Shown here: positions 2,106 through 27,740 of the stretch, in pieces
Position numbering within the stretch: the stretch's first letter is position 1
Layout of the letters: the number at the start of each line of letters is the position of its first letter
Source: Verrucomicrobiota bacterium
Lineage (GTDB): Bacteria > Verrucomicrobiota > Verrucomicrobiia > Opitutales > UBA953
Reading direction: 5' to 3'
NCBI GenBank assembly: GCA_030834165.1
Contig: JAURFU010000008.1
Location: forward strand, 1 to 48,851
Length of the DNA: 48,851 nt
Notes under the pieces: generated by a model
The model's database searches: none
Seen by the model: only the letters and a program-made list of their open reading frames with translations
What the model was told of the DNA's origin: nothing
Position numbers and translations under genes: made by a program

Positions 2106-3167
2106 ATGCGCCTGACCCGCATCCGGGCGGCTGATTTCCGTAACCTCACCTTCGCCGACGTCATCACCGACGCCCCGCGCGTCTTCCTGCTCGGCGACAA
2201 CGGCCAGGGGAAGACCAACCTGCTCGAGGCCGCCGCCCTGGTGTCCTCTTTTCGCTCTTTCCGCACGACCGACATCACCCCGCTCGTCCGGGCCGGCTGC
2301 ACGGAAGCCCGCCTCCGCCTCGACGTCCGCCTCTCGCCGACGGAGCACGCCGAGATCGAGCTCCGCCTGGCCAAGGGCTCGCGCAAAGCCCTGCTCAACG
2401 GCACGCCCGTCGCGTCCGTCGCCCAGCATCTCGGCCAGTTCCCGACCATCGTCTTCTGCTCCGACGACCTCCGGCTCGTTCGCGGCTCCCCCTCCAACCG
2501 TCGGCGCTGGCTCGACGCCGCGATCGGCGGCACCGACGCCTCCTACCTGACCGCGGTGCGCGACTATGGCCGCGCGCTCGAAGGACGCAACGCACTGCTG
2601 AAGTCCGACGTGCGTTCCGACGAAGAACTCCGCGCCTTCGAAAAGGCGATGCTCGCTCCGGCCCAGCTGATCGCCGCCACCCGCGCGCGCGTGCTGCCAG
2701 AACTCGCCGCGACGCTGCGCGAGACCTGCGCCCGCGCCGGCTTCCCCGACAAGGGCGCCGACCTCCGCTATGCGCCCGACGTTCCGGCCGACCAGCTCGC
2801 CGAAGTCTGGACGAAGACCCGCGGCGCCGACCTCGCGACGGGCACGACCCTCCGCGGCCTGCAGCGGGATGATTTCTCGATGATCTTCGGAGGACAGGAC
2901 GCCGCCGACTACGCCTCGGAAGGCCAGCAACGCCTCCTGGTCCTGGCCCTCTGCCTCGCCCGCCTGCAACGCGACACCCAACGCGCCCCGACCCCGCCCG
3001 TCATCCTGGCCGACGATGTCCTCGGCGAACTGGACGACACCCGCCGCCGGGCCTTCTGGGAAGAAGTCGGCGAAAAGCATCAGGTTATCGCGACAGGCAC
3101 CGTCCCGCCGCCTTCCGGCGAGTGGCTGACCTACCGGGTCTCCGGGGGCAGCTACCTCCAGGCCTGA
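2106..3167 (+). CDS. recF: DNA replication and repair protein RecF
   Basis: This 353-residue SMC-like ATPase has its Walker A at residues 30-37 (GDNGQGKT). A signature-like SEGQQR motif lies near 270 and a Walker B/D-loop ADDVLGELDD near 302-311, in the order expected for RecF. RecF acts with RecO and RecR to load RecA onto gapped single-stranded DNA. It starts 3 bp after the preceding stop codon, so it is in the same operon as the LysM lipoprotein. No dnaA, dnaN or gyrB is adjacent, unlike the common replication-origin arrangement. Confidence 0.95.
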   Translation: MRLTRIRAADFRNLTFADVITDAPRVFLLGDNGQGKTNLLEAAALVSSFRSFRTTDITPLVRAGCTEARLRLDVRLSPTEHAEIELRLAKGSRKALLNGTPVASVAQHLGQFPTIVFCSDDLRLVRGSPSNRRRWLDAAIGGTDASYLTAVRDYGRALEGRNALLKSDVRSDEELRAFEKAMLAPAQLIAATRARVLPELAATLRETCARAGFPDKGADLRYAPDVPADQLAEVWTKTRGADLATGTTLRGLQRDDFSMIFGGQDAADYASEGQQRLLVLALCLARLQRDTQRAPTPPVILADDVLGELDDTRRRAFWEEVGEKHQVIATGTVPPPSGEWLTYRVSGGSYLQA

Positions 3168-3210
3168 TTTTGGCGTTGTTTTATGGGGAAACGACCCCTT
3201 GGATAGGGCC

Positions 3211-6859: not shown

Positions 6860-7660
6860 TTACTTCTTGGCCTTGGCGGCGACGGCCGCGGCGACCTGGG
6901 CACGGAACTGCTTCACATCCGCGAGGTCCTTGAGGTCGGCCGGGGTCTCGGCGATGATCTCATCGAGGACCTTCAGGACGGCCGCGGAATCACCCGGCTG
7001 GCAAGTCTGGACGAGGCCGATGCGGGCGTTGAGCGTGAGGTTGAGCTTGGTGGCGCCTGTGAGTCCCTTCGCCTTGACGAATTTCGCGATGGCGGCTTCG
7101 CCGCCGACGAGATCCTTCTTCTCGAAGAAAGGCGTGACGACGGTCTCGAGTTCGGCGCCGTAGGCGCGGACGAGACTTTCGTCCTTCTTCATCTGCGCGA
7201 AGGCCTTGAGCCCCTCGGCGTTGTTGTCCTTCAGGAGTTCGGCGAGATGCGGCAGATACTTGGCCGGACCTCCGGCCAGATAGCCCGTCTGGGCGAACGG
7301 TTGACCGTCCGCGGAAAGGAGCATGATCGTCGGAAAGCCTTCGATGGCGAACTTCTCGGCCCAGACCTTGTTCTTGGCCTTCACTTCCGGGGTCTGCTGC
7401 TTCTTCTGCGGATAATCCAGTTCGACGAGCACGAAGTCCTTGGTGACGGCGGCGAACTCCTTCTGGTCAAAGACCTCCTTCTTCAGGCGGATGCACCAGC
7501 CGCACCAGTCGCTGCCGGTGAAGTCGACCAGGATCGCCTTCTTCTCGGCCTTGGCGACCTTGATGCCCTCGTCGAGGTCGGTCAGCCAGACCGGTTCGGC
7601 GGCGGACAAGGAGAGCGCGCTCAGGCAGAACGCGAGACTGGCGAGGAGGCTTCGGGGCAT
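6860..7660 (-). CDS. Secreted thioredoxin-like protein, CGWC active site
   Basis: This 266-residue paralogue of the next gene shares the layout: signal peptide (about 1-21), a VWLTDLDEG segment, a thioredoxin fold with WCGWC (Cys53, Cys56), the GFPTIMLL cis-Pro region, then a helical C-terminal extension. The dipeptide between the cysteines differs from the sister (GW against PP), which usually tunes redox potential. It is the first gene of a two-gene operon. Its promoter region carries a TTGCCTC -35-like element (complement of 7688-7694). Confidence 0.87.
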   Translation of the reverse strand: MPRSLLASLAFCLSALSLSAAEPVWLTDLDEGIKVAKAEKKAILVDFTGSDWCGWCIRLKKEVFDQKEFAAVTKDFVLVELDYPQKKQQTPEVKAKNKVWAEKFAIEGFPTIMLLSADGQPFAQTGYLAGGPAKYLPHLAELLKDNNAEGLKAFAQMKKDESLVRAYGAELETVVTPFFEKKDLVGGEAAIAKFVKAKGLTGATKLNLTLNARIGLVQTCQPGDSAAVLKVLDEIIAETPADLKDLADVKQFRAQVAAAVAAKAKK

Positions 7661-11305: not shown

Positions 11306-12016
11306 ATGGCCGACCTCGACCCAGCCCGCATCCCGGAACTCGACGCCCGTCTCGCGACGCTGGCGCCGGTGGACCGTCTGCGCTGGGCCTACGAGACCTT
11401 CGGAGCCCGCGCCGGCATCGGCACGAGTTTCCAGCCCGCCGGCGTGGTCATCCTGCACCTCGCCAAGACCGCCGGCCTGCCCATCCAGGCCTTCACGCTC
11501 AACACGGGCCTGCTCTTCCCTGAGACGCTTGAGTTCAAGGCGAAGCTCGAAGCCCACCTCGGCATCCAGGTCGAGGAAGTGCTCCCCGCGCAGACCGTCG
11601 AACAGCAGGCCGCCCAATACGGCGCCGAACTCTGGAAACGCGATCCGGAGAAGTGCTGCGAACTTCGCAAGGTCGACTCCCTCGGCAAGAAGCTGTTCGA
11701 CCTCGACCTCTGGATCACCGGCATGCGCCGCGACCAGAGCGCCGAGCGTTCCGTGACGCCGTTGCTCTCGCTCGCCGCCCGCCCTGACAACTCCGACGTC
11801 TGGAAGCTCAACCCGCTCGTCGATTGGAGCCGCGACCAGGTCTGGGCCTACCTCAAGGAGCACGGCCTGCCGCACAACGTCCTGCACGACCGCGGCTACC
11901 GCTCGATCGGTTGCCTCCCTTGCACCCTGCCCACCTCCGGCGGCGACGAACGCGGCGGCCGCTGGCCCGGCTTCGAAAAGAAGGAATGCGGCCTGCATAC
12001 GCGCACTAAGAAATAA
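11306..12016 (+). CDS. cysH: APS/PAPS reductase with 4Fe-4S cysteine set
   Basis: The product is 236 residues. It carries Cys117-Cys118 (KCCELRK) and Cys203-x2-Cys206 (GCLPC), the four ligands that mark iron-sulfur adenylyl-sulfate reductases, plus the catalytic ECGLH with Cys228 near the C-terminus. The nucleotide-binding TLNTGLLFPET segment is near 64-74. It would convert APS (or PAPS) to sulfite using thioredoxin. The ATG at 11306 lies 8 bp after the cysI stop. The cluster-binding cysteines favour APS as substrate, although the window also encodes an APS kinase domain. Confidence 0.92.
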   Translation: MADLDPARIPELDARLATLAPVDRLRWAYETFGARAGIGTSFQPAGVVILHLAKTAGLPIQAFTLNTGLLFPETLEFKAKLEAHLGIQVEEVLPAQTVEQQAAQYGAELWKRDPEKCCELRKVDSLGKKLFDLDLWITGMRRDQSAERSVTPLLSLAARPDNSDVWKLNPLVDWSRDQVWAYLKEHGLPHNVLHDRGYRSIGCLPCTLPTSGGDERGGRWPGFEKKECGLHTRTKK

Positions 12017-12029
12017 CCTCTTTCAAACT

Positions 12030-12062
12030 CCTAGCCCTAGCCCTGTCCCTAGCCCTAGCCCT
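12030..12062 (+). repeat. Hexamer tandem array (consensus CCTAGC) before cysD
   Basis: Five hexamer units with consensus CCTAGC, one degenerate (CCTGTC), fill most of the 55-bp cysH-cysD spacer. The array ends 9 bp before the cysD ATG, in the place where a Shine-Dalgarno would sit. The same hexamer family recurs at 23582-23659. Confidence 0.85.
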
Positions 12063-12906: not shown

Positions 12907-14799
12907 ATGAGCACCCAATCCCTTTCCCAACCCGTGAGCACCCCCCCTACCACCGCCGAAGACCATCGCAAGATGCACGTCGTCGTCGTCGGACACGTCG
13001 ACCACGGCAAGTCCACCTTCGTCGGCCGCCTCCTCCATGACACCGACTCCCTGCCCAACGGCAAGATGGAGCAGGTCCGCAAGAACTGCGCGATCGAAGG
13101 CATGGAGTTCGAATACGCCTTCCTCCTCGACGCCCTGATCGAAGAGCAGGAACAGAACATCACCATCGACACGACGCGCATCTTCTTCCGCACGAAGCAG
13201 CGCGCCTACGCGATCATCGACGCCCCGGGCCACAAGGAGTTCCTCAAGAACATGGTGACCGGCGCCGCCAGCGCGTCCGCCGCCCTCCTCCTCATCGACG
13301 CCAAGGAAGGCGTGATGGACCAGTCCCGCCGCCACGCGTTCCTGCTGTCCCTCCTGGGCGTGAAGCAGCTCGTTGTGCTGGTGAACAAGATGGACCTCGT
13401 CGACCACTCCGAGGCCACCTACCAGCAGATCGTGAAGGAGTACTCCGAGTTCCTCCGCACCCTCGGCCTCAAGGCCGTCCACTTCATCCCGATCGCCGCC
13501 AAGCACGGCGAGAACGTGGTCGAACGCGCCGCCAAGATGCCTTGGTGGAAGGGACCGACGGTCACCGAAGCCCTCGACGCCTTCTCGCACGAGGACGACC
13601 TCACCGGCCTGCCCCTGCGCCTCCCGGTCTCCGACATCTACCGTTTCGACCACCGCCGCATCATCGCCGGCCGCGTCGAAGCCGGCGCCATCCGTCCCGG
13701 CGACGAGCTCATCTTCCAGCCGGGCGGCCGTCGCAGCACGGTCCGGACCTTCGAAGACTGGCCGGGCCCCGAGTCCCGCCAGGTCGCCGGCACCGGCGAT
13801 TCGGCCAGCGTGACGCTCTCCGAGCAGATCTTCGTCGAACGCGGCCAGGTGGCCTCCCACCCGTCCGACCAGCCCCGCGTGGGCCGCGAATTCCGCGCCC
13901 GCATCTTCTGGCTGGGCAAGGAGCCGCTCGTCCCGAACAAGACCTACCGTCTCCGCCTGCTCACCCAGAACGTCGACGCGGTCATCGCGAAGATCGTCAA
14001 GGTGACCGACGCCTCGACCCTCGAATCCAAGGAAGCCGACAGCGTGCCGCGCGACTCGATCTGCGAGGTGATCGTCCGCGCCACCCGCAACATCGCCTTC
14101 GACCTCCATCACGAATGCCCGATCACGGGACGCTTCGCCCTCGAAGAAGGCGGCCGCATCCACGGCGGGGGCATCATCCTCGACGCGGTCACGAAGTCCG
14201 AAGCGCCCTCCGGCAAGGTCACGGCCTCCGAACGCGGCGCCCGGGCCGGCCATCCGCCGGCGGTCGTCTGGTTCACGGGCCTCTCCGGCTCGGGCAAGTC
14301 GACCATCGCCGAAGCCGTCGAGCGCCGTCTCTTCGACGCCGGCCGCAACGTCATCCGCGTCGACGGCGACGACCTCCGCGTCTCGCTCAACCGCGACCTC
14401 GGCTTCTCCGCCGCCGACCGCGCCGAAAGCGTGCGCCGCGCCTCCGCCGTCGCCGGCCTCTTCGCCGGCACGGGCCACATCACCCTCGTCACCCTGATCG
14501 CCCCGCTGGCCGCCGACCGCGCCAAGGCCCGCGCCGCCCTCGCGAACCACACGTTCATCGAGGTCTTCGTCGATGCCCCGCTCGCCGTCTGCGAATCCCG
14601 CGACGTCAAGGGACTCTACGCCAAGGCCCGCCGCGGCGAGATCGCCGAGTTCACCGGCATCTCCTCCCCGTATGAGGCACCGGAAGCCCCCGAGGTCCAC
14701 ATCAAGACCGACCAGACCTCGCAGGAAGAAGCCGTCGACCTGGTCCTTGGGGCCATCGACAAACTCATCCAAGGCAAGGGCGAAGACTGGGAAGTCTAA
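12907..14799 (+). CDS. cysNC: Bifunctional sulfate adenylyltransferase subunit 1 / APS kinase
   Basis: This 630-residue fusion has an EF-Tu-like GTPase with P-loop GHVDHGKS at 29-36, DAPGH and NKMD motifs, and beta-barrel domains. From about residue 440 an APS kinase (CysC) follows, with P-loop GLSGSGKS near 458-465. CysN stimulates CysD by GTP hydrolysis; CysC phosphorylates APS to PAPS. Making PAPS beside a cluster-type APS reductase suggests PAPS is used elsewhere, for example by sulfotransferases, or that CysH is flexible. A hairpin with a T-rich tail follows at 14851. Confidence 0.95.
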
Positions 14800-14814
14800 G
14801 CCCAAAAGGTGATC

Positions 14815-14842
14815 GCGGTAAGCGGCTAGCGGATAGTGGTTA
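14815..14842 (+). repeat. Heptamer array, left arm (consensus GCGGNTA)
   Basis: Four adjacent 7-bp units: GCGGTAA, GCGGCTA, GCGGATA and GTGGTTA. They lie just after the cysNC stop and before the terminator hairpin. An inverted array of the same heptamer lies beyond the hairpin, so the two could pair over the terminator. Confidence 0.8.
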
Positions 14843-14850
14843 GGAAACTT

Positions 14851-14889
14851 CAGGCGGCAGGGATCAACCCTTGTCGCCTGTTCTATTTT
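14851..14889 (+). terminator. Rho-independent terminator after cysNC
   Basis: The stem CAGGCG (14851-14856) pairs with CGCCTG (14875-14880), with further partial pairing inside, and is followed by the T-rich run TTCTATTTT. It ends the cysI-cysNC series. Confidence 0.75.
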
Positions 14890-14904
14890 GCCCGTCAAAG
14901 GCCC

Positions 14905-14932
14905 CAACCGCCATCCGCTAACCGCTATCCGC
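14905..14932 (-). repeat. Heptamer array, right inverted arm (consensus GCGGWTR)
   Basis: On the minus strand this reads as four heptamers: GCGGATA, GCGGTTA, GCGGATG and GCGGTTG. It is the reverse-oriented counterpart of 14815-14842. A 15-bp core (14829-14843 against 14918-14932) is complementary at 14 of 15 positions. Confidence 0.8.
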
Positions 14933-14950
14933 CCTAACCTAGGGCTCTCC

Positions 14951-14989
14951 CCTCTTGTCCTCCGGCCCTCCGGCCTCTAATCCTCGAGT
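14951..14989 (+). repeat. Octamer array (CCTCNNNN) abutting sulfatase start
   Basis: Five units beginning CCTC, four of 8 bp and one of 7 bp, run without gap into the sulfatase ATG at 14990. The last unit is CCTCGAGT. The array replaces any Shine-Dalgarno. A six-unit array of the same type is at 16576-16623 and also ends in CCTCGAG. Confidence 0.8.
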
Positions 14990-16459
14990 ATGCGCCTTAC
15001 CTCCGCCCTGCTCCTGCTGTCGTGCCTGTCCGCCCTCGCGGCGCCCAAGAAGAACGTCCTGCTGCTCGTCTCCGACGACTGTGGCGCCCGCATGGGCACC
15101 TACGGCGGACCGGCGCTGACGCCGAACATCGACGCCCTGGCCCGCGAGGGCGTCCGCTTCGACCGCGCCTACTGCCAATACGCGCTCTGCAACCCGAGCC
15201 GCACGTCCTTCCTCACGGGCCTGCGCCCGGACACGACCGGCGTCTACGACAACGCCAAGGAGTTCCGCAAGGTGATCCCGGACATGGTCACGATGCCCGA
15301 ACTCTTCAAGCATAACGGCTACGCGGTCGCCCGCATCGGTAAGCTCTACCACTACGGCGTCCCGAAGGAGATCGGCACCAACGGACTCGATGACCCGCAA
15401 TCGTGGGAACGCGTCTGGAACCCCCGTGGACGTGACTGCGACGACGAAGATAAGATCTTCTCGATCGGCGTCTCGGCCGGCTCTTCCGCCGACAAATCCA
15501 AAGGCAAGATGGGACAGATCCTCGTGGGCTCCGGCAACTACGGCGGCACGGTCAGCTGGCTCGCCGCCGATGGCACCGACGCCGAACAGACGGACGGCAA
15601 GATCGCCGCGCAGGCGGTCGACTTCCTGCGCCAGAAGCGCGATCAGCCGTTCTTCCTGGCCGTGGGCTTCTTCCGTCCGCACACGCCCTACGTCGCCCCC
15701 AAGGCCTACTTCGCCCAATACCCGAAGGATCAGGTGCAGCTGGCCAAGGAACCCGCCGGCAACCGCGAGACGAAGCCCCCGGTGGCCCTCTCGAACACCG
15801 CCGTGGCCCATTACGGGATGTCCGAGGACACCCAACGCACCGCCAAGCAGGCCTACCTGGCTTCGATGAGCTTCATGGACGCCCAGTTCGGCCTCGTGCT
15901 GGCCGAACTCAAGAAGCAGGGATTGGACAAGGATACGGTCGTCGTCTTCATCAGCGACCACGGCTATAACCTCGGCGAACACGGCCTCTGGCAGAAGCGT
16001 TCGCTCTACGAGGACTCCGCCCGCGTGCCGCTCATCATCCGCGATCCGGGCAACCCTGCCAACGGCCGTGCCACCAAGCGCGTCGCCGAACTCGTCGACC
16101 TCTACCCCACCGTCGCCGACCTCTGCGGGCTTCGTCCCGACAAGCGCGTCGAGGGCAAGAGCCTCCGCCCGGTGCTCGAACGTCCCGACACCCTCTGGAA
16201 TCACGCCGCTTACACGCAGGTCGACTTCGGCGCCATCAACGCCGGCGGCAAGAAGAAGGCGGCCACGCCCGAGCGTAAGGTCGGCCGCTCCGTGCGCACC
16301 GAACGATACCGCTATACCGAGTGGAACCAGGGCAAGCTCGGCGTCGAACTCTACGACCACGACGCCGACCCCGGTGAATTCAAGAACCTCGCCAACGATC
16401 CCGCCTACGCCTCCGTCGTCGCCGAACTCCGCCAGCGCCTGGCCAAGGGGACGAACTAA
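14990..16459 (+). CDS. Secreted type I sulfatase (iduronate-2-sulfatase-like)
   Basis: The product is 489 residues with a signal peptide (about 1-18). The sulfatase signature C-x-P-S-R occurs as CNPSRTSFLTG with Cys67, the residue converted to formylglycine. Metal ligands include the SDD pair (Asp29, Asp30) and the late SDHGYNLGEHG segment. The family-wide pattern resembles iduronate-2-sulfatase and the bacterial S1_7 group that desulfates polysaccharides. The natural substrate is not readable. It follows the sulfate assimilation genes but is separated by a terminator and repeat arrays, so co-transcription is unlikely. Confidence 0.92.
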   Translation: MRLTSALLLLSCLSALAAPKKNVLLLVSDDCGARMGTYGGPALTPNIDALAREGVRFDRAYCQYALCNPSRTSFLTGLRPDTTGVYDNAKEFRKVIPDMVTMPELFKHNGYAVARIGKLYHYGVPKEIGTNGLDDPQSWERVWNPRGRDCDDEDKIFSIGVSAGSSADKSKGKMGQILVGSGNYGGTVSWLAADGTDAEQTDGKIAAQAVDFLRQKRDQPFFLAVGFFRPHTPYVAPKAYFAQYPKDQVQLAKEPAGNRETKPPVALSNTAVAHYGMSEDTQRTAKQAYLASMSFMDAQFGLVLAELKKQGLDKDTVVVFISDHGYNLGEHGLWQKRSLYEDSARVPLIIRDPGNPANGRATKRVAELVDLYPTVADLCGLRPDKRVEGKSLRPVLERPDTLWNHAAYTQVDFGAINAGGKKKAATPERKVGRSVRTERYRYTEWNQGKLGVELYDHDADPGEFKNLANDPAYASVVAELRQRLAKGTN

Positions 16460-16466
16460 AGGAGAG

Positions 16467-16514
16467 GACTGAGTCGATGACTGCGTTGAGGGCTGAATCG
16501 AGGACTGAATCGAT
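16467..16514 (+). repeat. Dodecamer array (consensus GRCTGARTCGAK)
   Basis: Four contiguous 12-bp units in exact register: GACTGAGTCGAT, GACTGCGTTGAG, GGCTGAATCGAG and GACTGAATCGAT. They lie 7 bp after the sulfatase stop. Two units of the same family occur in reverse orientation at 25577-25600. Confidence 0.88.
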
Positions 16515-16522
16515 TAGCCGAA

Positions 16523-16577
16523 GGTAGGGCTGACCGCCCTCGGTCAGCCGCGGTTGAGCGAGCCGCTCAACCCTACC
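16523..16577. repeat. Two-hairpin palindromic element, copy 1
   Basis: The ends GGTAG and CTACC pair. Inside are hairpin one, GGCTGACC with GGTCAGCC (16528-16535 / 16542-16549), and hairpin two, GGTTGAGCG with CGCTCAACC (16552-16560 / 16564-16572). Together they can form a three-way junction. A second copy at 25453-25508 differs only in the loops. It resembles a REP or miniature element, but no transposase is visible in the window. Confidence 0.85.
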
Positions 16578-16623
16578 TCAAACCCTCCAGCCCTCGGGTC
16601 CTCCAGCCCTCCATTCCTCGAGC
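16576..16623 (+). repeat. Octamer array (consensus CCTCCAGC)
   Basis: Six exact-register 8-bp units: CCTCAAAC, CCTCCAGC, CCTCGGGT, CCTCCAGC, CCTCCATT and CCTCGAGC. They start at the edge of the palindromic element and end 2 bp before the Gfo/Idh stop codon. Confidence 0.85.
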
Positions 16624-16625
16624 GT

Positions 16626-17723
16626 TCAGCTATACTTCAACTGCACCTTCTTACCGGTGCGGATCGATTCGTAGATGCCTTCGACGATGACCATATCGCG
16701 GCGGCCGACTTCGCCGGTGCAGGTGACTTCGGTGCCGTTGCGGAAAGCCTCGGCGACGCCGTCCATGTGGCGCTGCTGCTGACGGAAGACGCCGAAATCG
16801 AGCTTACCCTTGGCGGAGGTCGAGATGTTGAGGTTACGGTAGCTGAACACCGGCTTCGAGCCTTCGAACCAGCCCTTGGCGGCTTCGGCGCGGAACTCAG
16901 CGCGATTGGCGTCATAGCCCGTCCAGACGTCGGCGACGGCGCCATTGGCGAACTCGAGACGGAACTCCATGGCCTGTTCGACCTCCTTGAAGAAATCAGG
17001 CTGGGTCTTCGGCAGCTCCTTGGCCGTGACCGCGACCGGATTGGCGTCGGCCGCCATGCAGCAGGCCTGGATCGAATACACGCCCATGTCGAGGAGCGCG
17101 CCGCCACCGGCGAGCTTCTTCTCGATGCGCCAGGCATGCTTGCGGAGCGTGAAGCCGTTGGCGCTGGTCATCTTCATGAACGGGCCGAACTCCTGGGTCT
17201 TGGCCAGGCGGACGAGTTCCTGGTGATACGGATCGAAATGCAGGCGGTAGCCGATGGCCAGGCGCTTGCCGGCCTTCTTGCCCGCGGCGATCATGGCGTC
17301 GCAATCGGCGACGGAGGTCGCCATGGGCTTCTCGCAGATGACGTGCTTGCCGGCGCCGAAGGCGTCCATGACGTTCTGGGCGTGGACGCCGGGAGGCGTG
17401 ACGACGTAGACGATGTCGATGGCCTTGTTGGCGGCGACCTTGTCCCACTGGTCGTAGGAATAGATGTTGGCTTCGTCGAAGCCATGGAGCTTCGCGAGCT
17501 TCTCGCCCTTCGCGCGGGTGCCCGTGATGGCGGCCACCAACTTCACGTTCTTGGTCTCCAGCAGGGCCGGCGACAGCTCGCCGTTGGCGTAATTACCCAG
17601 ACCGCAGAGCGCGAGGCCCAGGGGCTTGCCGCCGGACTCCGCCGCACGCAGCGCCGGAGCAAGGGCGTAACCGGCGGCCAGGCCACCGAGGGAACCGAGG
17701 AAAGCACGACGAGTAGGGCTCAT
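16626..17723 (-). CDS. Tat-exported Gfo/Idh/MocA family oxidoreductase
   Basis: The product is 365 residues. The N-terminus SPTRRAFLGSLGG is a twin-arginine signal, so the folded protein with its NAD(P) is exported. The Rossmann region follows (ALCGLGNYANG), with the family catalytic EKP at 131-133 and the C-terminal alpha/beta domain (GGGALLDMGVYSIQACC). The family oxidises or reduces sugars and cyclitols; the substrate here is unknown. The start at 17723 begins the Tat motif. It is the last gene of the minus-strand cluster 16626-23524 and converges on the sulfatase. Confidence 0.9.
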   Translation of the reverse strand: MSPTRRAFLGSLGGLAAGYALAPALRAAESGGKPLGLALCGLGNYANGELSPALLETKNVKLVAAITGTRAKGEKLAKLHGFDEANIYSYDQWDKVAANKAIDIVYVVTPPGVHAQNVMDAFGAGKHVICEKPMATSVADCDAMIAAGKKAGKRLAIGYRLHFDPYHQELVRLAKTQEFGPFMKMTSANGFTLRKHAWRIEKKLAGGGALLDMGVYSIQACCMAADANPVAVTAKELPKTQPDFFKEVEQAMEFRLEFANGAVADVWTGYDANRAEFRAEAAKGWFEGSKPVFSYRNLNISTSAKGKLDFGVFRQQQRHMDGVAEAFRNGTEVTCTGEVGRRDMVIVEGIYESIRTGKKVQLKYS

Positions 17724-23581: not shown

Positions 23582-23659
23582 GGGCTAGGGCTAGGGCCCC
23601 CTCGCCTTCCCTGCCTCGTCTTCAACTAGCCCAAGCCCGGGCCCTAGCCCTGGCCCTAC
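23582..23659. repeat. Inverted hexamer arrays (GGCTAG / CTAGCC)
   Basis: The left arm (23583-23597) has GGCTAG units. The right arm (23626-23659) has CTAGCC-type units, some degenerate (CAAGCC, CGGGCC, CTGGCC). The arms are inverted about a 28-bp pyrimidine-rich centre and could pair. The right arm overlaps the last codons of umuC, and the whole lies between umuC and the ceramidase start. It is the same hexamer family as at 12030-12062. Confidence 0.75.
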
Positions 23660-25452: not shown

Positions 25453-25508
25453 GGTAGGGCTGACCACCCTTGGTCAGCCGCGGTTGAGCGAGGGCGCTCA
25501 ACCCTACC
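25453..25508. repeat. Two-hairpin palindromic element, copy 2
   Basis: Same orientation and same stems as copy 1 at 16523-16577: GGTAG/CTACC ends, the GGCTGACC hairpin (25458-25465 / 25472-25479), and the GGTTGAGCG hairpin (25482-25490 / 25495-25503). Only loop bases differ, one loop being a base longer. It lies upstream of umuD in the umuD-cysK spacer. Confidence 0.85.
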
Positions 25509-25576
25509 CGAGACAACGCAGCATAACTCAAAGGGAAACCGGAGACCGGAAGATCGGCTGGGGCATCTGAACTGTC

Positions 25577-25600
25577 CTCGATTCAGTCATCGACTCAGCC
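25577..25600 (-). repeat. Dodecamer array, two units, inverted
   Basis: On the minus strand this reads GGCTGAGTCGAT then GACTGAATCGAG, the same 12-bp family as 16467-16514. A partial third unit (GACAG) follows. It lies between the palindromic element and the cysK terminator. The rest of the 25415-25670 spacer holds a short AAACCGG/AGACCGG-like run and no gene that I can see. Confidence 0.82.
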
Positions 25601-25612
25601 CTCTTGATTGCC

Positions 25613-27655: not shown

Positions 27656-27697
27656 CCCCCGCAGGCTTTCCGCAACCTCTTTCCCTGTCGGTTGGAA

Positions 27698-27703: not shown

Positions 27704-27705
27704 CC

Positions 27706-27733
27706 TATACTCCAAACTCTATACTCCATACTC
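27706..27733 (+). repeat. Heptamer array (TATACTC / CAWACTC) before superoxide dismutase
   Basis: Four 7-bp units: TATACTC, CAAACTC, TATACTC and CATACTC. They can equally be read as two 14-bp repeats with one mismatch. They end 7 bp before the ATG and leave no Shine-Dalgarno. Confidence 0.85.
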
Positions 27734-27740
27734 TCACCCC

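Follow-up and report, generated by a model that had tools for sequence, protein, structure and literature searches.

A REPIN-like palindrome stacked between two degenerate repeat arrays in a convergent-gene spacer, and a strand-polarity rule for such arrays in one Opitutales genus

The window analyzed here, i.e., the whole stretch of 48,851 nucleotides of contig JAURFU010000008.1 from a Verrucomicrobiota bacterium, contains a sulfatase ORF ending at position 16459 and an oxidoreductase ORF ending at 16626, which converge on the spacer 16460-16625. A first-pass annotation had described this spacer as three repeat modules in series with few unassigned bases. That description holds: a 12-mer array, a palindrome and an 8-mer array were all located at 16464-16623 between the two genes, and 146 of the 166 bases could be assigned to them (Table 1). 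Tandem Repeats Finder reported 4.2 copies with 76% matches for the period-12 array, hereafter termed B, and overlapping period-8 and period-16 rows with 71-83% matches for the 8-mer array. On the minus strand, the latter reads GAGGAATG-GAGGGCTG-GAGGACCC-GAGGGCTG-GAGG. The octamer GAGGGCTG, found twice in this array, is also present in the 12-mer array on the opposite strand, and the two arrays are therefore inverted relatives rather than unrelated modules. The pattern GTAGGG(20-50)CCCTAC was found at 16524-16576 and occurs twice in the window, compared with 0.03 expected occurrences. When folded as single-stranded DNA, the spacer was more stable than all of 200 shuffled versions (z -4.94). Rfam covariance models gave no matches over 16300-16800 at E values up to 1.

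Table 1. Repeat features located in the window.
Feature	Position	Strand	Remarks
GCGGTTA-type array of 7-mers forming the left arm of spacer 14800-14989, which is mirrored and precedes the sulfatase gene	14815-14844	+	
GCGGTTA-type array, inverted right arm of spacer 14800-14989	14904-14933	-	
8-mer array directly before the sulfatase start	14952-14988	-	G011 has another word of equal polarity there
12-mer array B (GAGGACTGAGTC/GATGACTGCGTT/GAGGGCTGAATC/GAGGACTGAATC)	16464-16513	+	G-rich strand exits sulfatase stop codon
REPIN-like palindrome, 55 bp	16523-16577	+	GGTAGGG foot, hairpins 16528-16549 and 16552-16572, closing CCCTACC
Degenerate 8-mer array (GAGGGCTG/GAGGACCC/GAGGAATG)	16583-16623	-	G-rich strand exits oxidoreductase stop codon; inverted relative of B
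Second REPIN-like copy, type as in spacer 16460-16625	25453-25508	+	
Fragment of array B, C-rich strand on +	25574-25603	-	

A search of the source genome (2.25 Mb in 150 contigs, 81% complete) with the spacer, in which 40 of 86 first-look candidates were scored, yielded at least 54 matches, mostly to the palindrome and the 12-mer block. Matches to the B part were many, with 75-96% identity among the matches listed. A linked array word, AAAGGGARACCGGARACCGG, was used to fetch a set of named genomes and was present there at a minimum of 114 loci. Among the 80 titles listed, 73 were Opitutae, Opitutia, Opitutales, Opitutus or Verrucomicrobia, and seven bore other names. Loci L159, L173, L202, L170, L198, L211 and L222 are titled Polynucleobacter, Akkermansia, Cytophagales, Bacteroidia or Omnitrophica, yet carry AAAGGGARACCGGARACCGG; these are likely to be misnamed bins or stray contigs. 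A 17-base version of the word was found in 39 of 141 genomes (the source genome included), all of them belonging to the genus of the source genome, from which 55 genomes were searched. All three spacer elements are dispersed repeats of one Opitutales genus.

Genes were called in a first sample of 617,391 bp of the source genome using a home-made codon-usage script, so that start codons are approximate, and spacers were listed from these calls. In sample spacers of at least 100 bp, arrays of period 5-15 occupied 3219 of 40,210 bp, compared with a mean of 30 bp and a maximum of 67 bp in 10 dinucleotide shuffles, a control that applies to the set of spacers and not to the spacer 16460-16625 alone. 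The arrays are built from about a dozen degenerate words with periods of 6, 7, 8 and 12, and 13 word patterns written from this sample were later reused as a dictionary.

The GGTAGGG foot was invariant across 17 aligned copies of the palindrome (16 distinct), and the two hairpins and the outer stem were paired in 99.1% of cells, as compared with 24-41% in slid controls. Seven pairs had changed on both sides, the covariation score was 0.284 vs 0.088 in shuffled alignments, and 30 cells were changed on both sides vs 6.7 in shuffles; further pair types showed no excess (13 vs 12.0, with 172 of 500 shuffles as high). GGTAGGG was found 99 times in 72,112 bp of spacers vs 155 times in the whole source-genome sample of 999,382 bp. 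One palindrome, at L029, looks like a hybrid of two stem types. The source genome gave one partial Y1_Tnp match over the cut-off (positions 16-78 of 121). The frame of this match has DHLHF and YVRRNPVRAG motifs, which we take to be RAYT-like; it lies at L037 1506-2112 (C43 of the source genome) with a REPIN of a sister stem type on either side, and its stop codon falls within the GGTAGGG of the downstream REPIN. Within the genus, Y1_Tnp matches were obtained in 28 of 55 genomes (the source genome among them), 24 of which were over the cut-off.

GTAG-tagged REPs and REPINs with RAYT genes have been described previously, and the accessible part of that report names Opitutus terrae as highly enriched (Di Nocera group 2013, PMC3733652). 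The palindrome shares with these elements the GGTAG foot, the two inverted hairpins, the many intergenic copies and a copy-flanked RAYT-like gene; compared with the same part of the report, no essential difference was found, the stems being a local sequence type. Since GTAG REPs are already known, also from O. terrae, the palindrome fits an established class, the GTAG-tagged REPINs, as an ordinary representative. A RAYT may move this REPIN, or may once have moved it, as single-stranded hairpin DNA.

The arrays follow a strand rule at gene edges. In the first sample, nearly all of the 13 word patterns had their G-rich strand to the left of the spacer midpoint and their C-rich strand to the right of it, with GGTGGCR as the exception, and this left-right skew was present in all four gene arrangements. 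When the dictionary without GGTGGCR was applied to 381,991 bp of fresh sequence from the source genome, the rule was kept in 19/21 and 15/15 cases; the identical count in the first sample was 71/77 and 80/90. Arrays detected without the dictionary in the named loci listed comprised 59 with G on the left and 58 with C on the right, vs nine and four of the opposite kind, and 28 ordered pairs within one spacer were G-then-C, with none C-then-G. A slightly looser dictionary-free detector found the G-rich strand outward in 90/94 arrays of the source genome, 15/16 of a congeneric comparison species (G011) and 173/194 of the named set (at least 114 loci). Arrays with an absolute GC skew below 0.15 were dropped from these hold-out and dictionary-free counts, as well as from the orphan counts given below. 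With looser word tokens, the C-strand preceded the G-strand in 14 ordered pairs vs 373 of the reverse order in the source genome, and in 44 vs 749 in the named loci listed. By spacer half, the words racc, gtyc and gtac follow the rule weakly, and GGTGGCR departs from it in the source genome.

The rule was strongest close to genes. At 15 bp or less from a gene edge it was kept in 39/39 arrays of the source genome, 7/8 of G011 and 75/78 of the named loci listed (121/125 in total), as compared with 8/9, 1/1 and 9/17, respectively (18/27 in total), where both edges were 150 bp or more away (Fisher p 2.2e-5). Outermost arrays in the source genome and the named loci listed lay at a median of 18 bp from the gene, with 96 of 255 within 10 bp. 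Convergent (stop-stop) spacers kept the rule in 14/15, 6/6 and 34/42 arrays, i.e., 54/63 in total. Start and stop edges thus obey the rule alike, and the G-rich strand exits the adjacent gene. Among congeners, polarity was kept in 5/5 arrays of G019, 5/5 of G040 and 1/2 of G051, and G041 had no arrays in 60 kb. Elsewhere in the window, a CCTAGC array at 12030-12062 lies approximately 9 bp ahead of a called gene start with the polarity of the rule. At 23582-23658, a GGCTAGGGCTAGGGCC array stands before its inverted relative CTAGCCCAAGCCCGGGCCCTAGCCC, both within the right half of a called spacer. Here the G arm violates the half rule, although the called start of the left gene may be too early.

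Two words without GGG, GAGTATN (gtat) and GTGCAAAG (tgca), displayed the expected polarity by spacer half in 21/21 and 32/32 cases in the source genome and in 35/36 and 32/33 cases in the named loci listed. Given that words lacking three-G units obey the rule, quadruplexes, judged from the words themselves, cannot be its general reason. The 12-mer of the spacer 16460-16625 does have GGG in some units. As a group, the arrays are degenerate, intergenic and G-strand outward near ORF edges, as G-rich heptamer arrays are, but a G-run 7-mer unit suited to quadruplexes is not common to them.

Comparison between species revealed turnover of the arrays. For the sulfatase/oxidoreductase pair, 22 further loci within the genus served for comparison, the nearest congeners being 81-92% identical over the two genes. 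At 14 loci the gap was at least 735 bp and, by eye, contained another gene; the remaining eight gaps of 79-265 bp held differing mixes of REP-like palindromes, B, the 8-mer array and CCCTAC runs, and C-rich runs closed the gap in all eight. Of 93 spacers orthologous between the source genome and G011, 37 were at least 60 bp long in one species, and the N-free ones shorter than 700 bp were inspected. Word arrays were seen by eye in five pairs, three of which carried a different word at the equivalent position in unchanged polarity. In the spacer 14800-14989, the outermost array adjacent to the start had changed, and the inner GCGGTTA pair was kept with altered wobble positions. The spacer at 16460 itself has a differing word at an equal place and polarity in G011, and at L048 12880 (CCTAGC)n faces CCTACC-type repeats. 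Arrays were kept at L273 17600, where the REPIN type differs, and at window position 27656. A GAGTATN-type array (C-strand) at 27705-27734, which ends right before a called gene start, has changed units in G011.

The polarity might arise from selection at the level of transcripts, if G-rich (Shine-Dalgarno-like) leaders and C-rich trailers were harmful and the surviving arrays gave C-rich leaders and G-rich trailers. We consider this explanation rather unlikely, even though it is in keeping with several findings: leaders are C-rich in array-free spacers too, where the skew of the outward strand at starts is +0.160, several leaders end in CCCC, and the in-place word differences between species keep polarity. 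At stop ends, however, the skew was +0.020 (s.e. 0.020) in array-free spacers vs +0.221 in array-bearing spacers, the latter a loose class that also took in 38 of 282 shuffled spacers. As array-free spacers show no skew after stops, background composition cannot explain the stop side; a leader-composition background, which accounts for starts, fails here. Furthermore, convergent spacers obey the rule although they have no leaders, and the attraction of arrays to gene edges exceeds what purging of the wrong polarity would give; both results include the named loci listed. In the source genome, several start codons follow CCCC or another C-rich leader, and the coding strand is C-rich immediately ahead of starts.

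Spacers are also often mirrored. Inverted 8-mers shared between spacer halves numbered 529 in 230 spacers, compared with a mean of 161 and a maximum of 286 when halves were re-paired in 500 permutations. Where two words were each mirrored in one spacer, 16 cases were nested, one crossing and two side by side, vs approximately eight nested and eight crossing expected. In one spacer the order is ctag> rep> racc> rep> rep< racc< rep< ctag<. Array B was mirrored by itself in two of 28 B spacers of the source genome. At L050, the word order GCGGTTA-racc-GGTGGCR-B recurs in 1110-1504, 2867-3203, 7039-7592, 14472-14825 and 11421-11780, with four spacers in one direction and one as a mirror image.

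The first-pass annotation had further proposed testing whether arrays and palindromes occur together in intergenic regions over 80 bp. In spacers of at least 80 bp, co-occurrence was borne out with dictionary words and did not persist in length-matched, dictionary-free counts. With words, and leaving out three G-run 6-mer words that overlap the palindrome foot, the source-genome sample comprised 21 spacers with both elements, 59 with an array only, four with a palindrome only and 198 with neither. The 21 compares with a length-matched permutation mean of 12.7 and a maximum of 21, reached once in 2000 permutations; the listed loci of named relatives gave 74 vs a mean of 63.0 and a maximum of 72 (reached in 0/2000). 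Dictionary-free counts were 13 vs 9.7 in the source genome (202/2000) and 44 vs 43.7 in the named loci listed (1039/2000). Co-occurrence is modest, and partly due to long spacers holding everything. A common mechanism, suggested by that annotation, is unsupported for the whole stack, since palindrome and arrays are of different kinds, the former being of a known one (GTAG REP/REPIN with RAYT). For the arrays taken by themselves, a common rule of edge polarity and mirrored nesting is strongly supported.

The array units have a distinct anatomy. In 10 of 14 words examined, one G was 95-100% invariant, and the last unit position, in the register chosen, was often nearly free, with a mismatch between adjacent units of up to 0.85. 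Variation over the unit was uneven in 14/14 words (chi-square p at most 2.2e-4), in a test restricted to words with at least four assigned arrays and to arrays that matched a listed word at 62%. This phase-specific variation rules out slippage decay as its source. Among 15 four-unit copies of B from the source genome and the named spacers listed, 13 had CTGC as part of unit 2; the mostly kept unit order suggests that arrays spread as blocks. Copying alone does not account for the fixed and free unit positions.

We lean, at slightly better than even confidence, towards a joint account of the spacer as three non-coding repeat elements that have each dispersed separately, recur across the genome and stand stacked here; it combines a REPIN, fold-back array modules and a gene-edge effect. 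Arrays would spread in short blocks, frequently two at a time as the arms of a fold-back (inverted) module. Whichever way round it inserts, a two-armed module would show a G arm to the left and a C arm to the right, and once the remaining spacer was lost the arms would abut the genes. Outermost arms would thus always obey the rule, whereas the inner arms of side-by-side modules may break it, and the drop in polarity at a distance from genes would follow from this. Arrays without an opposite arm would require an effect of the gene edge, either targeting or purging of the other polarity. Strict orphans, i.e., arrays with no opposite-polarity word in their spacer, kept the rule in 21/27 cases, and on the 5' side 11 lay within 20 bp of the gene vs one at the other end. 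Symmetry alone predicts neither the polarity nor the 5' placement of these orphans, and a gene-edge effect is therefore also likely. Against the fold-back component are the rare mirroring of B alone and the swap of the outermost array in 14800-14989, which counts against simple insertion at the centre. Further points against the joint account are the fixed and free unit positions, the lack of an excess of further pair types in the palindrome, and the negative outcome of the RVT_1 and Ku searches of the 81% complete source genome.

A broader proposal, which we put forward only tentatively, is that a polar DNA process at gene edges might place or keep arrays with one strand outward, regardless of gene direction or word, perhaps also in Xanthomonas and Nostoc. 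Quadruplexes would not be the reason, and the arrays would be either recognition arrays, with nearly fixed and nearly free positions, or arms of an undescribed class of fold-back elements. A benefit of the arrays to the cell is unproven.

Two DNA-repair explanations fare less well than the joint account of REPIN, fold-back modules and gene-edge effect. Telomere-like healing, in which a break in the spacer would be followed by addition of G-rich repeats to both 3' ends and rejoining, would leave gene-G...C-gene with independent words. It predicts the polarity observed, the single-sided arrays and the differing words at the two ends of a spacer; however, polarity weakens away from genes, B copies look block-copied in that they mostly keep their unit order, and the 81% complete source genome gave no match to RVT_1 or Ku. 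We regard healing as improbable, and still more so the idea that arrays are Chi-like sites shielding genes from end resection that starts at breaks in the central palindrome. A Chi site requires a polarity, and that of the arrays fits; AGCGG, which is the Chi of B. subtilis, lies within the GCGGTTA word. A dozen words for one recognition event are nevertheless implausible, and SbcD and PDDEXK_1 (a RecB/AddB-type nuclease domain) gave no match in the same 81% complete genome, in which no enzyme for the arrays was found. Of the 55 genomes searched in the genus (the source genome among them), 23 had PDDEXK_1. Ordinary slippage-born tandem repeats and chance, without any rule, are scarcely credible: the arrays are individually weak (71-83% matches in this spacer) and repeats gather in long spacers, but the approximately 100-fold array excess over shuffles, the polarity of the hold-out, which contradicts this explanation, and of the named loci listed, and the phase-specific variation of all 14 words stand against it.

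Intergenic arrays of degenerate heptamers are a long-known phenomenon. The cyanobacterial STRR heptamers, reportedly described by Mazel and colleagues in 1990, are said to form degenerate intergenic arrays with several words per genome and resemble the present arrays in both respects; we know of no polarity or mirror rule for them. Drosophila Foldback elements, which are large eukaryotic transposons, share inverted arms made from short tandem units and provide an analogy only.

The heptamer arrays GGGAATC of Xanthomonas and GGGGAYT of Nostoc PCC 7120 have been studied as quadruplex formers (Rehm et al. 2015, PMC4692102). According to the accessible part of that study, the non-coding strand within 50 bp holds the greatest fraction of the arrays upstream of ORFs, and the coding strand within 50 bp holds most of those downstream. 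Convergent pairs numbered 70 and 75 in the two Xanthomonas species, and inverted pairs were few in Nostoc. The present arrays are alike in being intergenic tandem arrays with identical G-outward polarity. From what that part of the study describes, they differ in having about a dozen words of period 6-12 rather than one word per genome, some without three-G units, in the nesting of words with one another and with REPINs, and in word differences between species at one and the same place. The TAACTGA repeats of Beggiatoaceae are likewise intergenic heptamer arrays oriented relative to start codons (PMC4679880); the accessible part of that report describes one word, mainly forward before starts with one inverted case, as opposed to the many words here. 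In the parts of these two works consulted, heptamer arrays are without a settled explanation (PMC4692102, PMC4679880), and a limited literature search gave, among its best-ranked matches, no report of such arrays in Verrucomicrobiota. The present arrays represent a known, unexplained type in a much richer form, and a strand rule that extends across many words is worth pursuing. Many words in many species obey one rule, some of them without G-runs, and the rule is thus separable from sequence content and directly testable, with selection, insertion targeting and fold-back origin as the alternatives.

Sister genera had few arrays, with the rule kept in 7/8 in G055, 1/2 in G056, 0/1 in G057 and 1/1 in G058. 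Mirrored spacers built from other words were seen there at L298 10343 (G056) and L294 10699 (G055), i.e., AGGCAAAAGG.../...GCCTTTTGCC and AAGCTGAGAAGCTGAAG.../...AAGCTTTTAAGCTC.
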